Assembly: GCF_022690685.1 (NCBI RefSeq) | Contig: NZ_JALCYY010000023.1 | Span: 1 to 60,216 of the forward strand | DNA: 60,216 bases | Origin: Anaeromyxobacter terrae | Lineage (GTDB): Bacteria > Myxococcota > Myxococcia > Myxococcales > Anaeromyxobacteraceae | Direction of reading: 5' to 3' | In this document: positions 11,970 to 28,704 of the stretch, piece after piece | Layout of the letters: each line of letters starts with the position of its first letter | How positions within the stretch are numbered: position 1 is the first letter of the stretch | Made by a program: the position numbers and the translations under genes | Notes under the pieces: model-generated | What the model was told of the DNA's origin: nothing | The model's input: only the letters and a program-made list of their open reading frames with translations | Databases searched by the model: none

Positions 11970-17279
<5,310 letters not shown>

Positions 17280-19430: not shown

Positions 19431-21416
19431 TCAGTAACGGACCGAGTACAGGAAGGTCGCGCCCGGGAAGCGCAGCCAGCGCTCGGTGACGGCGCGCAGG
19501 ACGGAGGCGGAGGGCCCCTCTCCGCGCACGTACTCGGCCTCGAGCGCTCGCGCGGCGGCGGCGTCGCCGCGCGCCTTCACTCCGAGCGCCACCTGCTCGA
19601 GCTTCGTGACCGCCGCCGGGAAGGCGGCGAAGTCCACCTCGAGGCACCCGTGGTCGCGCCCGTTCGCGGCATTCGCCTCGGGGCGCCACACGAGCCCGCC
19701 CTCCTTCAGGAGGAAGCCGACCTGGATGGCGGCCAGGGCGCTGTAGGGCTTCACCTTGCCCTCCGCGTCGTACATCCCGCGGCTGATGTGGCCGAAGGTC
19801 CAGACCACGTCGCGGACGTGCGCACGCTCGGCGAGGTCGCGGGCGAGGATCCCGCGCGCGGCGAGCCAGTCGGTGAGGAACAGCGCGCTCGTCTGCGCCT
19901 TCAGCTCCTCGAGCGTGCTCGCCATCGGGCCGCCGAAGATCTGGTCGTCGGTGCGGCCGCCGACGGCGTACTCGTGCGCGGGCCCGAGGTTGTGCGCGGC
20001 CTCGTGCAGCACCGTGCCCATCACCGTCGCGTCGGCGTCGTCGGAGTAGCGCGCCAGGGTCGCCGGGCAGAGGATCGACTCCGCCCGGCGCCGCTGCACG
20101 TCCTTGCTCTCGGGGTCGGTGTAGAAGCTCGTCATCGCCACGGTCCGGCCGCGCCCCTCGTTCGCGACCGGCCCCCAGTTCGGGAGCGACTGGCCGACGG
20201 TGGCGCCGCGCGCCGAGCGGGCGTCGCCCGCGTTCACGACGATCTGGATGAAGTCCGGCAGGTGGAAAGACACCGCGCGCGCGACGTACGGAGGCCCGGC
20301 GAGCCCGGCGAGCGCCTTCTCCATGTCGCTCTTCACCGGATCGAGCCGGCGCTGCCACTCCAGCGAGGCGCGATCGATGCGGGCGAAGCTCAGCTGGAAC
20401 CCGGCCTTGAGGCTGCACGGCTCGAAGTACACCTCGTCCGGCGCGACGCGCAGGTAGAAGCGCGAGTTCTCGGCGCTCATGCGCGACCAGGCCTCGTCGG
20501 CGGAGGTCCAGTCGTCGGTGCGGAACGCGCGCGCCGCGGCGGCGAGGTACCCCCTCAGCGCCGCCTCGCCGGGGCTCTGGATCGCGGCGCCCGCCGCCTC
20601 GAGCTCGCGGGCGATGGCCTCCATGTCGTCCCGGAAGGCGACGTGGTACGGCACCGGGACGAGGGCGCCGGACGCGTCGCGCCCGACGACGGAGAAGGGC
20701 CTCGTGAGCTCCTCGCCGCGCGGCGCCTTCTCGAGCGCGTCGCAGAACCCGGTGCCGTTCGCCTGCAGCTCCGCCGGGTAGAGGCCCGACAGGCGGGGCG
20801 GCGTGGGGGAGATGGCGGTGCAGGCCGGGTCCTTCTCCGTGGTCGGCCCGCTGCACCAGGGACCCTGGTTGAGGAAGAAGACGAGGCGCGAGAGGCCGTC
20901 GTCCGCCGGGATCCGCGCCGCGAGGTCGAGCGTCCCGAGCTGCCGCGCGTGGAGCCGCTCAACGAGCCGCGCCGCCTCGAGCACATGCCGGACGAGGTCG
21001 CGCTCCTCCGCGGCGGCGGACGCGAAGTCGCTCTCGAGGACGGTGAAGTAGCTCTGCGCGAGCTCCTTCTCGAGCGCGGCGTGGCGCGCGTCCTCCTGGG
21101 CGGCAGGGGACGCCGCGCGAGCGCGCACCCGCGCCCAGGCCTCGAGGAACTCGGGCGTGAAGCGGCCGTCCTTCACCCAGTGCTCGCGGGGGCGCGCATC
21201 GAGGCCCCACACGAGCGCGAGCTCGTCGGGGTCGAGCGCGCCGTTCCGGTTCGAGTCCTGGCTCCAGAAGAACGGATAGGCGAGCTCGAGCGACGCGCGG
21301 TTGAGCTTCTCGCGGGGAGGACCTTCGGGAGCGGGGCCGACGGTGGGCTTCCCGCCACCGCGGGAGGCGCAGCCTGTGACGAGGAGGGCGAGGAGGGCGA
21401 GGCGCAGGTGCTTCAT
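19431..21416 (-). CDS. M49-like (dipeptidyl-peptidase III type) metallopeptidase lipoprotein
   Basis: A 661-residue lipoprotein; the ATG at 21416 gives MKHLRLALLALLVTGCAS with lipobox VTGC. A calcium-binding EF-hand loop, DSNRNGALDPDEL, lies near residues 54-66. The catalytic region has HEAAHNLGPAHEY (~471-483) as a zinc site, followed about 30 residues later by TLEELKAQTSAL, with E-E in the position expected for the second M49 motif. Known dipeptidyl-peptidase III enzymes use HExxGH plus EExRAE; this variant has a five-residue HExxH and LEELKAQ. It should be a periplasmic or outer-membrane exopeptidase removing dipeptides. TAGAAC lies 32 nt upstream. It is the only window gene combining an EF-hand with a protease motif. 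Confidence 0.75.
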   Translation of the reverse strand: MKHLRLALLALLVTGCASRGGGKPTVGPAPEGPPREKLNRASLELAYPFFWSQDSNRNGALDPDELALVWGLDARPREHWVKDGRFTPEFLEAWARVRARAASPAAQEDARHAALEKELAQSYFTVLESDFASAAAEERDLVRHVLEAARLVERLHARQLGTLDLAARIPADDGLSRLVFFLNQGPWCSGPTTEKDPACTAISPTPPRLSGLYPAELQANGTGFCDALEKAPRGEELTRPFSVVGRDASGALVPVPYHVAFRDDMEAIARELEAAGAAIQSPGEAALRGYLAAAARAFRTDDWTSADEAWSRMSAENSRFYLRVAPDEVYFEPCSLKAGFQLSFARIDRASLEWQRRLDPVKSDMEKALAGLAGPPYVARAVSFHLPDFIQIVVNAGDARSARGATVGQSLPNWGPVANEGRGRTVAMTSFYTDPESKDVQRRRAESILCPATLARYSDDADATVMGTVLHEAAHNLGPAHEYAVGGRTDDQIFGGPMASTLEELKAQTSALFLTDWLAARGILARDLAERAHVRDVVWTFGHISRGMYDAEGKVKPYSALAAIQVGFLLKEGGLVWRPEANAANGRDHGCLEVDFAAFPAAVTKLEQVALGVKARGDAAAARALEAEYVRGEGPSASVLRAVTERWLRFPGATFLYSVRY

Positions 21417-23451: not shown

Positions 23452-23782
23452 GGTGGCCTCCGGTGTGGGGGCGTGGATGGGGCGGCAAAGAGCCGCGCGG
23501 AGGAGAACATGCGCGGCCGTCGGCGTCGTGGGACGAGTTGGGCCTAGTGGGGGAGGCCTTTCGACGCCCTCAAAAGACGCGACGCCGCTCACGCAACCCG
23601 CGGAAAGGCCGATGATTTCGAGCGAAATCGGCGCCCATCGGGACCGCGAAGACTTGATCTGCGTCACGGTGCGCCTGTACCCGATACGGTACGTGAATGT
23701 GTACCCAGGGGGGATTTGGCTCCTGCCTTGGTATGTCCCGCGGTCGCGGGAGGGCGGGCCCCGCAGCAGGAGGCGAGCACCG
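23452..23782. other. Intergenic region between divergent serA and the PilZ/FeeM operon
   Basis: About 330 bp without a credible gene, noticeably less GC-rich than the rest. It contains two small dyads: GATTTCG/CGAAATC (23608-23632, extended by a GCC/GGC pair) and GTACC/GGTAC around 23677-23692. A sigma54-like TTGGC-N7-TTGG lies at 23716-23731 but has GG where the invariant -12 GC is needed. The region should hold both promoters; I cannot place them with confidence. AGGAGG ends 10 nt before the plus-strand ATG. Confidence 0.4.
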
Positions 23783-25363
23783 ATGCGAATTCCCACCTGG
23801 TCCGCGGACGCGAGCGCCCGCCCGGCCGAAGACGCCACCCCGCTTCCGCGCAGGTTCGACGCGGCGGACCCCGAGGCGTCGCTTGCGCGCGTCCACGCGC
23901 TCGGCCCGCGCGATCCGGTCCACGGCGCGGTGTTGCCCGGCGACGTGCGCCCGGGAGATCCGGTCTTCGCGCAGGTTCGCGTCGCGGGCGCCCCGGGGCC
24001 CGGCGCATCCGGGCAGGTCTGGCGCATGTCGCCCCTCGGCGTCGAGCTCGTGCGCTCCCCCGCGCTCGCCGCGGTCTCGCCCGGCGACGCCCTCGATCTC
24101 ACGCTGCGCGTGGGGGGGAGCGTCAGCTCCTTCACCGGGCTGCGCGTCGCGGCGGTCCGGATCGATCGCGGGCGCGAGATCGTCGCGCTGCGCTGGTCGG
24201 AGGCTGGCCCCGCGGACGAGGAGGGCGCGCCCGGCGAGAAGCGGTCGTCCTCGCGATTCGCGTGCGAGCGCGACTGGCTCCCGACGGGCGTGACGCCGAA
24301 CGCGGTCCGCTACGACGACCAGATCCACTTCCGCATCGCCGACATCTCGCGGACCGGGATGCAGCTCGTCACGAGCCTGCGGAACAAGTTCCTCATCCCG
24401 GGCGTCGAGTTCACCGGGACCTGCACCTTCCCGACCATGGGCCAGGCGGAGATCGCCTTCCGCGTCGTGCGCGTGCGGATCGCGCAGCACGGCGCGAAGC
24501 GCTGCCTCGCGCTCGGCGTGACGTGGTCGGTCCCGGATCCCCGCACTCGCGAGCTCGTCGGGCAGTACCTCCTCCAGTTCGGGCCCGGGACGAGCGTGCA
24601 GGAGCTCCGCGAGACCGGCTTCCACGTCCGCTCGTCCAGCCGCGCGCTCGACTTCGGTGCCGTCCGGACCGAGGAGGAGTACCGCGAGGTGCTGGCGCTC
24701 CGGCGCATCGCGTACCTGCGCGCGGGCAAGGTGGGGTCAGGGGCGCGCGACGAGGACATGGCCGACGCGCTCGACGCGCGCTCGCGCATCCTCGTCGCGA
24801 AGTACCGCGGCCGCATCGTCGCCTGCGTCCGGCTGCTCTTCCCGCCCACCCCGGACTCGCCGCTCAAGCACGAGGACTACCTGACGCTGCCCTCCGGCGC
24901 GCCCCCGCGCGACGAGATCGTGGAGCTCTCGAAGTTCTGCACCCACCCCGACTTCCGCGGCAGCGACCTCTTCTACACGCTCGTGAAGCACTGCGCGCTC
25001 ACCACGATGCAGTCGGGGCGGCGCTACGCCGTCATGAGCTGCACCGACGAGCTCGTCAAGCCGTACGGGCGCGTGGGGTTCCGCAAGCTCGGCGCCTCCT
25101 ACGTCCACCCCACGATGAAGCTCGAGCACCACCTCATGATGGCGGAGGTCGCGCGGGTGGTGTCGGGCAAGCACGTGAACCCGGTGATCTGGAACCTCAT
25201 GGGCGGCTGGGAGCTCTGGTCGTTCGCGCGCCTCTGCGGGGTCGCGCCCGGGAGCAGGCTGCTCGACGCGCGCGTCGCGGTCTGGCGGCTGTTCGGCCCG
25301 GCGGCGCGCGCCGCGCTGGCACTCCACCTCAAGCGCAAGGGAGCGCGGGGGTGGCGCCGATGA
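23783..25363 (+). CDS. PilZ-domain FeeM-like N-acyltransferase
   Basis: A 526-residue protein; the ATG at 23783 follows AGGAGG, while the frame's earlier open stretch has no Shine-Dalgarno. Residues ~45-140 resemble a first, degenerate PilZ/YcgR-like barrel (WRMSPLGVELV, without RxxxR). Residues ~153-265 carry a complete c-di-GMP signature, RSSSR (154-158) and DISRTG (187-192). Residues ~290-470 are a GNAT-fold N-acyl amino acid synthase domain of the FeeM/autoinducer-synthase type: LALRRIAYLRAGKV, RIVACVRLLFPP, FCTHPDFRGSDLFYTLVKHC. FeeM relatives join fatty acyl-ACP to an amino acid. I infer a c-di-GMP-controlled N-acyl amino acid synthase. It overlaps the next gene by ATGA. Confidence 0.8.
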   Translation: MRIPTWSADASARPAEDATPLPRRFDAADPEASLARVHALGPRDPVHGAVLPGDVRPGDPVFAQVRVAGAPGPGASGQVWRMSPLGVELVRSPALAAVSPGDALDLTLRVGGSVSSFTGLRVAAVRIDRGREIVALRWSEAGPADEEGAPGEKRSSSRFACERDWLPTGVTPNAVRYDDQIHFRIADISRTGMQLVTSLRNKFLIPGVEFTGTCTFPTMGQAEIAFRVVRVRIAQHGAKRCLALGVTWSVPDPRTRELVGQYLLQFGPGTSVQELRETGFHVRSSSRALDFGAVRTEEEYREVLALRRIAYLRAGKVGSGARDEDMADALDARSRILVAKYRGRIVACVRLLFPPTPDSPLKHEDYLTLPSGAPPRDEIVELSKFCTHPDFRGSDLFYTLVKHCALTTMQSGRRYAVMSCTDELVKPYGRVGFRKLGASYVHPTMKLEHHLMMAEVARVVSGKHVNPVIWNLMGGWELWSFARLCGVAPGSRLLDARVAVWRLFGPAARAALALHLKRKGARGWRR

Positions 25364-25926
25364 GCGGCGATCTGCGCCTCGTCGCGCTCGCCGCGCTCGG
25401 CGCGCTCGCCGCGGTGTTCCTCGGCGGCGTGCGCCGCGTGTTCCGCCGGCCGGAGGGACCGCACCGCTACCGCGCCTCCCTCGTGTCCGGCCTCGTCCTC
25501 GCGGTCGAGTCCGCCGTGATCGCGCTGACCCCGGTCCCTCCAGCGCGGCTCGCCGCCGCGCTCGTCCTCTTCGCCCTGTCGCTCGGGCTCTTCCTGTGGG
25601 CGGCGCGGGTCAACCGGGAGCGGCCGCTGCTCCTCGCCTTCGCGGCGCACGTCCCGGAGCACCTCCAGACGCGCGGCCCCTACCTCCTCGTGCGGCACCC
25701 GTTCTACGCGAGCTACCTGCTCGCGTTCGCGGGCGGCCTCGTCGCGGCCGGGACCGCCTGGCTCCTGCCGCTCTTCGGCGTGGGCTTCTACACGTACTGG
25801 CAGGCCGCCGCGCGCGAGGAGCGGGGCTTCGCCGCGAGCCCGCTCGCCGGAGCGCACCGCGAGTACGCCGAGCGGGTCGGCATGTTCGTGCCGCGACTCT
25901 CCGCCCTCCTCGGCCGCCGGGGCTGA
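25360..25926 (+). CDS. Isoprenylcysteine carboxyl methyltransferase-like membrane protein
   Basis: A 188-residue integral membrane protein with about five spans; ATG 25360 overlaps the stop of the acyltransferase gene. The C-terminal half has the ICMT/PEMT signature: HLQTRGPYLLVRHPFYASYLLAF, then a span, then EERGF and EYAERVGMFVP. The RGPY-RHPxY and E-x-x-x-F elements bind SAM and the membrane substrate. Known relatives methylate carboxylates or amines of membrane lipids or prenylated peptides. Given the translational coupling to a FeeM-like synthase, methylation of an N-acyl amino acid carboxylate is an attractive inference, untested. A smaller chance is a phospholipid or quinone methyltransferase. 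Confidence 0.75.
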   Translation: MSGDLRLVALAALGALAAVFLGGVRRVFRRPEGPHRYRASLVSGLVLAVESAVIALTPVPPARLAAALVLFALSLGLFLWAARVNRERPLLLAFAAHVPEHLQTRGPYLLVRHPFYASYLLAFAGGLVAAGTAWLLPLFGVGFYTYWQAAAREERGFAASPLAGAHREYAERVGMFVPRLSALLGRRG

Positions 25927-25930
25927 CCGC

Positions 25931-25965
25931 GGCGGCGGACCGCGCCGTCAGCTGGCTCCGCCGCC
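25931..25965. terminator. Possible hairpin between convergent genes
   Basis: GGCGGCGGA (25931-25939) pairs with TCCGCCGCC (25957-25965) across a 17-nt loop, between the ends of the converging methyltransferase and hybrid kinase genes; the right arm lies in the kinase C-terminal codons. The long loop makes this tentative. Confidence 0.35.
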
Positions 25966-28581
25966 CAGGAGGTCCGGGTTCGCGAGCTCGTGCAGGCCGG
26001 AGGGGAAGTCGGGGAACTGGGGGGCGGCGTCCTCGTACAGGCGCAGGAAGGCCTGCACGCACTCGGGATCGAGCTGCGAGCCGCTGCAGCGCAGGATCTC
26101 CTCGACGGCCAGGCGGTGCTCGATCCCGGCGCGGTACGGGCGGTCGCTCGTCATCGCGTCGTAGGTGTCGCACACGGCGAGCACGCGCGAGAGGGGCGGG
26201 ATCTCCATCCCGGCGAGGCCGTCCGGGTAGCCCGCGCCGTCGAAGCGCTCGTGGTGGTGGAGGATCGCGCGCGCCACGCCGTCGAGCTCCTTCACGGCGG
26301 AGACGATGCGCCACCCCATCTGCGAGTGGCGCTTGAAGATCGCGTACTCCTCGGGCGTGACCTTTCCCGGCTTCACGAGCACCGCCTCGGGGGTGCCGAT
26401 CTTCCCGAGGTCGTGGAGGATCCCCGCGATGCGGATCGTCTCGCACTCCGCCTCGGAGAGCCCGAGCTCGCGCGCGACGCGCTCGGCGAGCAGCGACACG
26501 CGGCGCGAGTGGCCGTGGGTGTACGGGTCCTTCGCCTCCACCGCGAGCGCGAACGCCTCCATCGTCTCGAGGAACACCTGGCGCTTCGAGAGGACGAGGT
26601 CGAAGTTGAGCTTCGCGAGGTACTCGTTCTTCTCTGCGAGCTCGACGGCGAGCTTGCGCTTCTCGAGCAGCGAGCGAATGCGCGCGCGCAGCTCGGCGAC
26701 GCTGAAGGGCTTCGCGAGGTAGTCGTCCGCCCCCTCGCGCAGGTTCTCGATCTTGCTCTCCAGGTCGGCCTTGGCGGTCACTAGGATGACCGGCACGTGG
26801 CGGAGGCGCGCGTCGCGGCGCAGCTCGCGCAGGAGGTCCGTGCCGGAGCCGCCCGGCATCATCACGTCGCTCAGCACCAGCGCCGGCGGCTCGACGGCCG
26901 CCATGCGGAGCGCCTCCGCCGCGCGCTCGGCGACGCGAACCCGGAACTCGTCGGCGAGCTGCCGCGCGACGAAGTCGAGCAGCTCGCGGTTGTCGTCCAC
27001 CACGAGGATGAGCGGCCTCGTGCCGCTCGACGCCCGGGTGGCGGGGGAGGGGGTGAGCCGGATGGGGCGCGGGGGCGGCCGGGCGCCCTCGAGGTGCAGC
27101 GCGACGGCGGCGGGCTGCGCGGGGCGCCTGCGGTCCACCGGCACGGGCTGGTGCTCCTGGCGCCGGTCGATCCGCTCGGGGGGATAGGCGGCGCGGTCCG
27201 TCGGCAGCTCGAGCGTGAAGCACGAACCCTCTCCGACGCGGCTGCGCACCGCGACGGAGCCCATGTGGAACTCGGCGAGCTGGCGCACCAGCGCGAGGCC
27301 GATGCCGGTCCCGCCGCGGCCGCGCGCCGCCGGGCCCTCCACCTGGTGGAACCGGTCGAACACCCGCTCGATCTGGTCGTCGGGGATCCCGATGCCGGTG
27401 TCCTCGACGGAGCAGAAGAAGCGATCGCCCCGGACGCCGCAGCGCACCGTCACCGCGCCGGGGCGAGCGTCCGTCCCGTCGGTGAACCGGATCGCGTTCG
27501 AGAGGAGGTTCAGGACGACCTTCTCGAGCTTGTCGCGGTCCACCGGGAGCGGCGGCACCGGCCCGTCCACGGCGAGCGCGAGCGAGACGTGCCGCTGCGC
27601 CGCGAGCGGCCGTCCGCTCTCGACGAGCGAGCCGAGGAGCTCGACCACGTCCACGTCCTCGAGCCGCAGGAACTCGTGCTTCGCGTCGAGGCGGGAGAGG
27701 TCGAGGAGCGTGTTGATCTGCCGCAGCAGCCGCTGCGCGTTGCGCAGCATGAGCTCGAGATCGGCCCGCACCTCCGCGGAGACGCCGCCCGCCTCGGACA
27801 TCATCGCCTCGAGCGGCGCGATGATGAGGGTGAGCGGCGTGCGCAGGTCGTGCGAGACGTTCGTGAAGAAGTTGGTCTTCACGCGGTCGAGCTCGACCTG
27901 GGTGGCGAGGAGCTGCTGCTGAGCCTGCCGCTCGCGCCGCGACGTGAGGAAGGCGCGCACGTCGGTCGCCATGCGCGCCCGGAACAGCAGCACCAGGCCG
28001 ATCGCCATCGTGAGGACGCTGAAGAGCCGCGCCGGGTGGATATCGGTGTGGCGCCACGCGAACGCCCACTCGCAGGTGAAGACCGCCAACAGGGTGGCCA
28101 CCGCCGTCGGCGCCGACTGGCGGAGGAGCAGCACGCCCACCACGCCGAAGACGAACGCGTACAGGTACGAGACGCTGGGGAGCCACACCACCGTCAAGGC
28201 CTGCAGGCAGCTGACGACGAGCGTGAGCAGGAAGAGCGGCGCGCGCGCCCACAGGCCGCGCTGGAGCCTCGGCAGGAACGTCGCGGCGAGGAGCAGCGCG
28301 TAGAACACCGAGCTGCCGAAGCGGTACGTGGCCCAGCGCGACGCGGGCGTGAGCTCGAGCGGGAGGTCGACGAGGAAGTGGTGCAGGACCTGGCCGACGA
28401 TGGAGCTCACGAGCGCGACGCGCGCGTAGAGGACGATGAGCCGGTCCTCGTGCCCGCGCCACTGCGCGCGCCACGGGGTGCCGTCGAGCAGGACCTCCGG
28501 GAACAGCGCTGCGAGGACCCGCCTGCGATCCAGCAGGGGACGGCGCGCGTGCCGCTCGGAGGCTGTCGACTGCTCGCTCAC
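25948..28581 (-). CDS. Membrane histidine kinase / receiver / HD-GYP phosphodiesterase hybrid
   Basis: An 877-residue hybrid from GTG 28581. Residues ~45-210 contain about six membrane spans with short loops. HisKA has SHDLRTP (phospho-His244), and the ATPase domain has NLLSNAIRFTDG, DTGIGIP and GTGIGLALVRQ (to ~460). After a Pro-rich linker, a receiver domain (~525-640) carries phospho-Asp572 (VLSDVMMPG), acidic pair VVDDN and Lys624. Residues ~680-830 are an HD-GYP domain with HDLGKIG (His723-Asp724) and HHERFDGAGYPDGL. HD-GYP proteins hydrolyse c-di-GMP to GMP. The expected circuit is membrane signal, autophosphorylation, internal phosphotransfer and control of phosphodiesterase activity. 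It is downstream of the KaiC/PPDK fusion in the same direction. Confidence 0.92.
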   Translation of the reverse strand: MSEQSTASERHARRPLLDRRRVLAALFPEVLLDGTPWRAQWRGHEDRLIVLYARVALVSSIVGQVLHHFLVDLPLELTPASRWATYRFGSSVFYALLLAATFLPRLQRGLWARAPLFLLTLVVSCLQALTVVWLPSVSYLYAFVFGVVGVLLLRQSAPTAVATLLAVFTCEWAFAWRHTDIHPARLFSVLTMAIGLVLLFRARMATDVRAFLTSRRERQAQQQLLATQVELDRVKTNFFTNVSHDLRTPLTLIIAPLEAMMSEAGGVSAEVRADLELMLRNAQRLLRQINTLLDLSRLDAKHEFLRLEDVDVVELLGSLVESGRPLAAQRHVSLALAVDGPVPPLPVDRDKLEKVVLNLLSNAIRFTDGTDARPGAVTVRCGVRGDRFFCSVEDTGIGIPDDQIERVFDRFHQVEGPAARGRGGTGIGLALVRQLAEFHMGSVAVRSRVGEGSCFTLELPTDRAAYPPERIDRRQEHQPVPVDRRRPAQPAAVALHLEGARPPPRPIRLTPSPATRASSGTRPLILVVDDNRELLDFVARQLADEFRVRVAERAAEALRMAAVEPPALVLSDVMMPGGSGTDLLRELRRDARLRHVPVILVTAKADLESKIENLREGADDYLAKPFSVAELRARIRSLLEKRKLAVELAEKNEYLAKLNFDLVLSKRQVFLETMEAFALAVEAKDPYTHGHSRRVSLLAERVARELGLSEAECETIRIAGILHDLGKIGTPEAVLVKPGKVTPEEYAIFKRHSQMGWRIVSAVKELDGVARAILHHHERFDGAGYPDGLAGMEIPPLSRVLAVCDTYDAMTSDRPYRAGIEHRLAVEEILRCSGSQLDPECVQAFLRLYEDAAPQFPDFPSGLHELANPDLLGGGAS

Positions 28582-28704
28582 GCGACCTCGCGCCAGCGTC
28601 GCCGCGCGGCGCGCGCGGGCGGGCGATGGTTGCGCGGAGTGTAGTGGATCTCGACCCGCTCGTAGAAGCCGGCGCACGCAGCGTGCGCGTCCCACGACGC
28701 GGCG

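Follow-up and report, generated by a model that had tools for sequence, protein, structure and literature searches.

A PilZ and FeeM-type fusion gene overlapping a membrane methyltransferase gene in Anaeromyxobacter: a possible c-di-GMP-responsive pathway for a lipid amino acid

Within the 60,216-nucleotide stretch of Anaeromyxobacter terrae DNA under study (hereafter the window), two overlapping genes were identified, of which the first (gene 1) encodes a fusion of a PilZ-like barrel, a PilZ domain and a FeeM-type N-acyl amino acid synthase (NAS) domain, and the second (gene 2) an integral-membrane methyltransferase (Table 1). Tentatively, and with a confidence just short of even, the pair is read as a c-di-GMP-responsive NAS together with a dedicated membrane methyltransferase acting on its product. 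If this reading is correct, c-di-GMP, an internal messenger, would be linked to an exported or membrane-borne lipid amide. c-di-GMP is the main bacterial switch between the moving and the settled mode of life, and its known outputs are mostly polysaccharides, motors and gene regulators.

Table 1. Positions of the pair, its domains and the adjoining features in the window
Feature	Position	Strand	Basis
Upstream divergent intergenic region (to SerA-like gene), with AGGAGG and inverted repeat TCCCGC-N4-GCGGGA ahead of gene 1	23464..23782	+	Sequence comparison, three species
Gene 1, tandem PilZ-like, PilZ and FeeM-type NAS fusion, 526 aa	23783..25363	+	ORF, Pfam, orthologs G005 (A. soli SG29) and G007
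Motif-less N-terminal barrel of gene 1, residues ~42-144, six strands, PilZ-like fold, without RxxxR or DxSxxG	23906..24214	+	AlphaFold model and structural matches
PilZ domain PF07238 of gene 1, with RSSSR (residue 154) and DISRTG (residue 187)	24239..24574	+	Pfam; motifs in all three orthologs
FeeM-type GNAT domain PF21926 of gene 1, residues 303-454, catalytic-type Glu381 in IVELSKF	24689..25144	+	Pfam, hhalign, fold match
C-terminal extension of gene 1, residues 455-526, no known family	25145..25360	+	Strongly conserved in three orthologs; low pLDDT
ATGA stop-start overlap of genes 1 and 2	25360..25363	+	Same in three Anaeromyxobacter species
Gene 2, integral-membrane methyltransferase, PEMT/ICMT superfamily, 188 aa	25360..25926	+	Pfam, motifs RHPFYASYLL and EERGF...YAERVGMFVP
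Hybrid histidine kinase of layout HisKA-HATPase-REC, its C-terminal domain an HD-GYP c-di-GMP phosphodiesterase	25948..28695	-	Pfam, HDLGK 761, GYP 822

Gene organization and coding evidence

Gene 1 starts at an ATG preceded by AGGAGG, and the start ATG of gene 2 lies inside the stop codon of gene 1. The coordinates and frames given for both genes in the original prediction proved exact to the base, and the ATGA coupling that it described is kept in the three species. In both frames GC3 is 0.96, as in the surrounding real genes, which represents the strong coding signature of a GC-rich genome. Pairwise comparison of the three orthologs gave an overall dN/dS of 0.25-0.29, alike for genes 1 and 2; by segment of gene 1, the value was lowest in the linker-plus-FeeM portion (0.15-0.19), followed by the PilZ domain (0.25-0.34) and the N-terminal part (0.36-0.44). 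The overall values and the position of the lowest one altogether indicate that genes 1 and 2 are not chance open reading frames, and both are under purifying selection in the three species.

The inverted repeat TCCCGC-N4-GCGGGA located just ahead of gene 1 has invariant arms and a variable loop in the three species and is a possible operator, as is a second inverted repeat of the same intergenic region, GATTTCG..CGAAATC, that is present in two of the three species. A search for riboswitches (c-di-GMP GEMM or other) gave no Rfam match between positions 21400 and 26200 up to an E-value of 0.5.

Sensor and catalytic parts of the fusion protein

The PilZ domain scored 29.2 bits against the Pfam cut-off of 22.5 over residues 153-264, and also exceeded the cut-off in both orthologs. 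Its two motifs are arranged in the expected order, and are represented by RGASR and DISRDG in the more distant G007 ortholog. Since RSSSR and DISRTG fall within the Pfam match, they are more than a chance motif; the full PilZ signature that had been noted ahead of a FeeM-type GNAT domain is thereby upheld, both domains being above their Pfam cut-offs.

Ahead of the PilZ domain lies a barrel of PilZ-like fold. The AlphaFold model of the whole protein, built from the three orthologs, had a mean pLDDT of 42 and was poor outside this first barrel, and of that model the first barrel alone was used; it was modelled fairly confidently at residues 60-137 (pLDDT 71-81 over 61-140). The top structural matches of the barrel (VIA-align) were mostly PilZ domains at Z of 7-8 (BcsA, 4xrn, YcgR, MotI, PA0012, Alg44 and MrkH), and the top Foldseek matches of the whole gene 1 model were the two-barrel c-di-GMP receptors MrkH, PlzA, YcgR and MotI. 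RSSSR is located at the junction between the N-terminal barrel and the canonical PilZ barrel, where YcgR-type receptors carry it. As judged from the models, the sensor of gene 1 appears to resemble the YcgR/MrkH-like tandem-barrel module. The N-terminal PilZ-like barrel, the RxxxR at the junction and the canonical PilZ barrel would all be shared with YcgR, MrkH, MotI, PlzA and VCA0042, but these receptors act on motors or promoters, whereas the barrels of gene 1 are fused to an enzyme.

Gene 1 is predicted with good confidence to bind c-di-GMP. Within the PilZ domain, the ligand would occupy the sites formed by RxxxR and DxSxxG, and its binding would alter the packing of the tandem barrels on the GNAT domain, turning the enzyme on or off; both activation and inhibition are possible for PilZ effectors.

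The FeeM match of the catalytic part was 35.3 bits against a cut-off of 27 (43.1 and 35.1 bits in the orthologs). Strong FeeM relatives in Myxococcota score 103-141 bits, as compared with 35 for gene 1, and its NAS domain is a distant member of the family. A second Pfam family, Acetyltransf_5 (PF13444), was matched nearly as well, at 33.5 bits against a cut-off of 22.4. PF13444 is the family of OlsB, and gene 1 might instead be an OlsB-like enzyme forming a lyso-aminolipid of which gene 2 would N-methylate the head group, c-di-GMP then tuning membrane composition with no signal being made. The first-step chemistry of OlsB and NAS is closely alike (PMC11631085), methylated ornithine lipids exist, and PEMT enzymes can methylate amines; however, the FeeM score is slightly above that of PF13444, and a scan of the neighbouring genes revealed no OlsA/PlsC-type O-acyltransferase, whereas an olsB gene commonly has olsA next to it. 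A methylated membrane aminolipid is, on this balance, an improbable outcome.

The identity of the catalytic part was further examined by structure. A model of residues 270-526, built from 22 sequences from which the Rhizobium plasmid protein (see below) was left out, reached a pLDDT of about 90 in the core. It superimposed on FeeM (2g0b_C) with Z of 17.9 and rmsd of 3.1 over 172 aligned residues, on the AHL synthases TofI, LasI, RpaI and BjaI with Z of about 17, and on the small CoA-dependent acetyltransferase SACOL1063 with Z of 20.0 over 141 residues, slightly above FeeM. Since SACOL1063 exceeds FeeM and other GNATs score alike, the fold alone does not fix the substrate or the product. FeeM itself (PDB 2G0B) is like gene 1 in the GNAT fold and the position of the catalytic Glu, but is a stand-alone chain of 198 residues without a sensor, with about 10% identity to the gene 1 domain in the structural alignment.

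The catalytic residue was located by hhalign of gene 1 against the myxobacterial FeeM family (E-value 1.4e-5), in which E381 falls on the Glu invariant among the strong relatives; this invariant Glu aligns with the Glu of the LAEV segment of FeeM in 2g0b. E381 thus occupies the position of the catalytic Glu (Glu95 of FeeM and Glu103 of Nas354), which is present in all three orthologs. A single-sequence phmmer search with gene 1 returned only chance matches among the PDB sequences. CoA-binding GNATs usually carry a glycine-rich loop of the form RGxGxG/A, and the loop after E381 in gene 1 contains RGSDLF in its place, a replacement that may fit an acyl-ACP user. In Nas354, Glu103 is essential (PMC4897644).

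These features bear on the possibility that gene 1 is a GNAT of another kind than NAS. The generic GNAT fold and the best structural Z, obtained with a CoA-dependent acetyltransferase, agree with such an assignment, and HfsK of Caulobacter, a c-di-GMP-binding GNAT in holdfast formation that is relocated and inactivated by c-di-GMP (PMC5362036), offers an example. HfsK is like gene 1 in having an N-acyltransferase fold under c-di-GMP control (for gene 1 predicted), but is a FemX-like tandem GNAT without PilZ. The FeeM match above the cut-off, the Glu381 kept at the NAS catalytic position and, from sequence and general knowledge of GNATs, the replacement of the usual CoA loop speak against this assignment, and make a non-NAS GNAT quite improbable. 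An N-acyl amino acid is held to be the product of gene 1 with somewhat better than even confidence: in the active enzyme, Glu381 would act as the general base in the N-acylation of an amino acid with a long chain, for which acyl-ACP is the probable donor.

The methyltransferase and its candidate substrate

Gene 2 carries about four hydrophobic segments and the motifs RHPFY and EERGF, both kept in the three orthologs. Its Pfam score was 30.6 bits for PEMT (PF04191; cut-off 25), and the ICMT models stayed below threshold (PF04140, 16.6 bits against 24; NCBIfam NF040696, 21.1 against 160). The strongest named NCBIfam match was LmtA, the lipid A phosphate methyltransferase, far below its cut-off. 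The description of gene 2 as ICMT-like in the original prediction therefore holds at the level of the superfamily, but not for ICMT itself, PEMT being the best family. Enzymes of the PEMT/ICMT superfamily methylate N, O and S atoms, and the carboxyl methyl ester that had been proposed as the final product turns out to be a guess.

In the proposed pathway, the N-acyl amino acid would enter the inner membrane and have its head group methylated there, with SAM, by the methyltransferase that is co-translated with the synthase. That gene 2 methylates the NAS product of gene 1 is conceivable, our confidence staying a little under one half. A carboxyl O-methyl ester would be the most natural guess for the methylated product, and yet a methyl ester, as opposed to N- or other methylation, is considered rather unlikely. 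NAME is chemically the product type that was proposed for this locus, its likeness to the locus being in product chemistry alone; the genes for its synthesis are reported as unknown. Methyltransferases are also located beside NAS genes in Stieleria, where they were discussed as candidates for C- or O-methylation of tyrosine (PMC12479983).

The two genes may instead serve separate substrates, gene 1 being a c-di-GMP-gated NAS and gene 2 methylating a phospholipid, lipid A phosphate or another membrane component, their co-transcription then reflecting a common role in envelope remodelling on a change of c-di-GMP. The family assignments of gene 2, with PEMT as the best Pfam family and LmtA as the strongest named, though sub-threshold, match, fit this arrangement, as does the genomic distribution: no PEMT gene was found beside the FeeM genes of 17 further FeeM-bearing Myxococcota genomes, and the NAS/PEMT pairing is thus without independent recurrence. 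Against it, the retention of the four-base overlap by three species suggests that the genes are tightly coupled and share a substrate path, and the equal dN/dS of genes 1 and 2 is compatible with joint constraint. Separate substrates are considered an unlikely but sizeable alternative to a methyltransferase that acts on the NAS product.

Neighbourhood, known systems and distribution

The hybrid histidine kinase gene is convergent with genes 1 and 2 and is located 21 bases downstream of them. Its HD-GYP domain is intact, with an HD_5 match of 137.8 bits and both signature motifs. The full-length kinase is found only in the three genomes that carry genes 1 and 2 (orthologs of 91% and 79% identity), and the other six Anaeromyxobacter genomes hold only partial kinase paralogs of 35-42% identity. 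The module is located between the genes for PPDK and SerA, which adjoin each other without it in two genomes (G002 and G004). The restriction of the full-length kinase to the pair-bearing genomes and the adjacency of PPDK and SerA without the module make it probable that a single block comprising all three genes was gained or lost. Since the three carrier species are close relatives, the co-occurrence may reflect one gain or loss, and stands for linkage rather than repeated selection.

Eleven GGDEF and 14 PilZ domains were counted in the genome, indicating that c-di-GMP is available in the host. The PilZ signature on a FeeM-type GNAT, together with an HD-GYP neighbour in the same three genomes only, strongly suggests that gene 1 is under c-di-GMP control. 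The kinase/HD-GYP protein might lower local c-di-GMP on receipt of a signal and so reset the switch. A self-regulating cassette of all three genes, in which a kinase-controlled HD-GYP would set local c-di-GMP, c-di-GMP would directly gate N-acyl amino acid synthesis, and gene 2 would yield the methyl ester, has a low probability.

Elsewhere in the window, a single chain of 1769 aa is encoded at 11970-17279 on the reverse strand, with biotin carboxylase, biotinyl and carboxyltransferase parts and an ACC_central match, a layout that is unusual for bacteria.

The reading of gene 1 as a c-di-GMP-gated NAS follows precedents, namely the PilZ fusion of Nas354, the cAMP-activated NasP and five NAS fusions with a cyclic-nucleotide-binding (cNMP) domain in Myxococcota. 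Two fusions of the NAS-PilZ type, Nas343 and Nas354, were described by Thies et al. (2016, PMC4897644); nas354 in E. coli led to a surface-active N-acyltyrosine, and control by c-di-GMP was proposed by the authors. Like gene 1, both have a FeeM-type NAS fused to PilZ and a conserved catalytic Glu, but Nas343 and Nas354 begin with the NAS and end with a single PilZ, whereas in gene 1 PilZ is located ahead of NAS and an extra PilZ-like barrel comes first. Neither a partner methyltransferase nor an HD-GYP neighbour is described for them in the portion of the paper at hand (PMC4897644). The view of the original prediction that no pathway of this arrangement had been described therefore has to be given up for the PilZ/NAS fusion as such, but stands for the open subset of PubMed Central with respect to four features: the reversal of the domains, the additional barrel, the partner methyltransferase and the adjoining HD-GYP gene, which are new as far as found in that literature.

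The cAMP-activated NasP and the Myxococcota NAS-cNMP fusions are like gene 1 in that a second messenger is the known or predicted regulator of an NAS. They differ in the messenger and the sensor domain, and the sensor of the fusions is C-terminal. The fusions, with NAS followed by the cNMP domain, were found in five other Myxococcota genomes (L042, L044, L045, L047 and L048), indicating that NAS has repeatedly been combined with sensors of second messengers. In four of these five fusions the position of the catalytic Glu is taken by V, F or D; such proteins may rely on a different residue or have a regulatory role.

The FeeM-type domain was detected in 65 of the 195 Myxococcota genomes. Among the best-scoring FeeM loci, the PilZ motif pair in FeeM proteins was limited to the three Anaeromyxobacter genomes, and in the sampled part of the phylum the PilZ version of the NAS-sensor fusion is confined to this lineage. 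One FeeM-bearing frame considered as a PilZ fusion (G182, L043:352-1983 on the reverse strand, 543 aa) was rejected, as it encodes an NAS-type GNAT with a class-V aminotransferase.

Conservation of the gene pair across myxobacteria, put forward earlier as a check, was not observed: among the best-scoring FeeM loci of the 195 Myxococcota genomes, the pair occurs in three genomes, all within Anaeromyxobacter (three of nine), and a search of genome contigs gave A. soli only. In each of the three carriers the two genes adjoin and share the ATGA overlap. Of the named relatives, A. soli SG29 is the nearest, with 91% protein identity, and the other carrier species shows 80%.

The search of plasmids yielded one distant NAS, in Rhizobium sp. 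T136 (L061:4371-5738 on the forward strand, 455 aa), of which the N-terminal stretch of about 230 residues has no Pfam match; the cluster that contains this gene also encodes a halogenase of the CmlS type and an adenylate-forming enzyme. Within Myxococcota, one genome of 6.4 Mb (G193) carries eight strong FeeM-type genes, scattered over its contigs.
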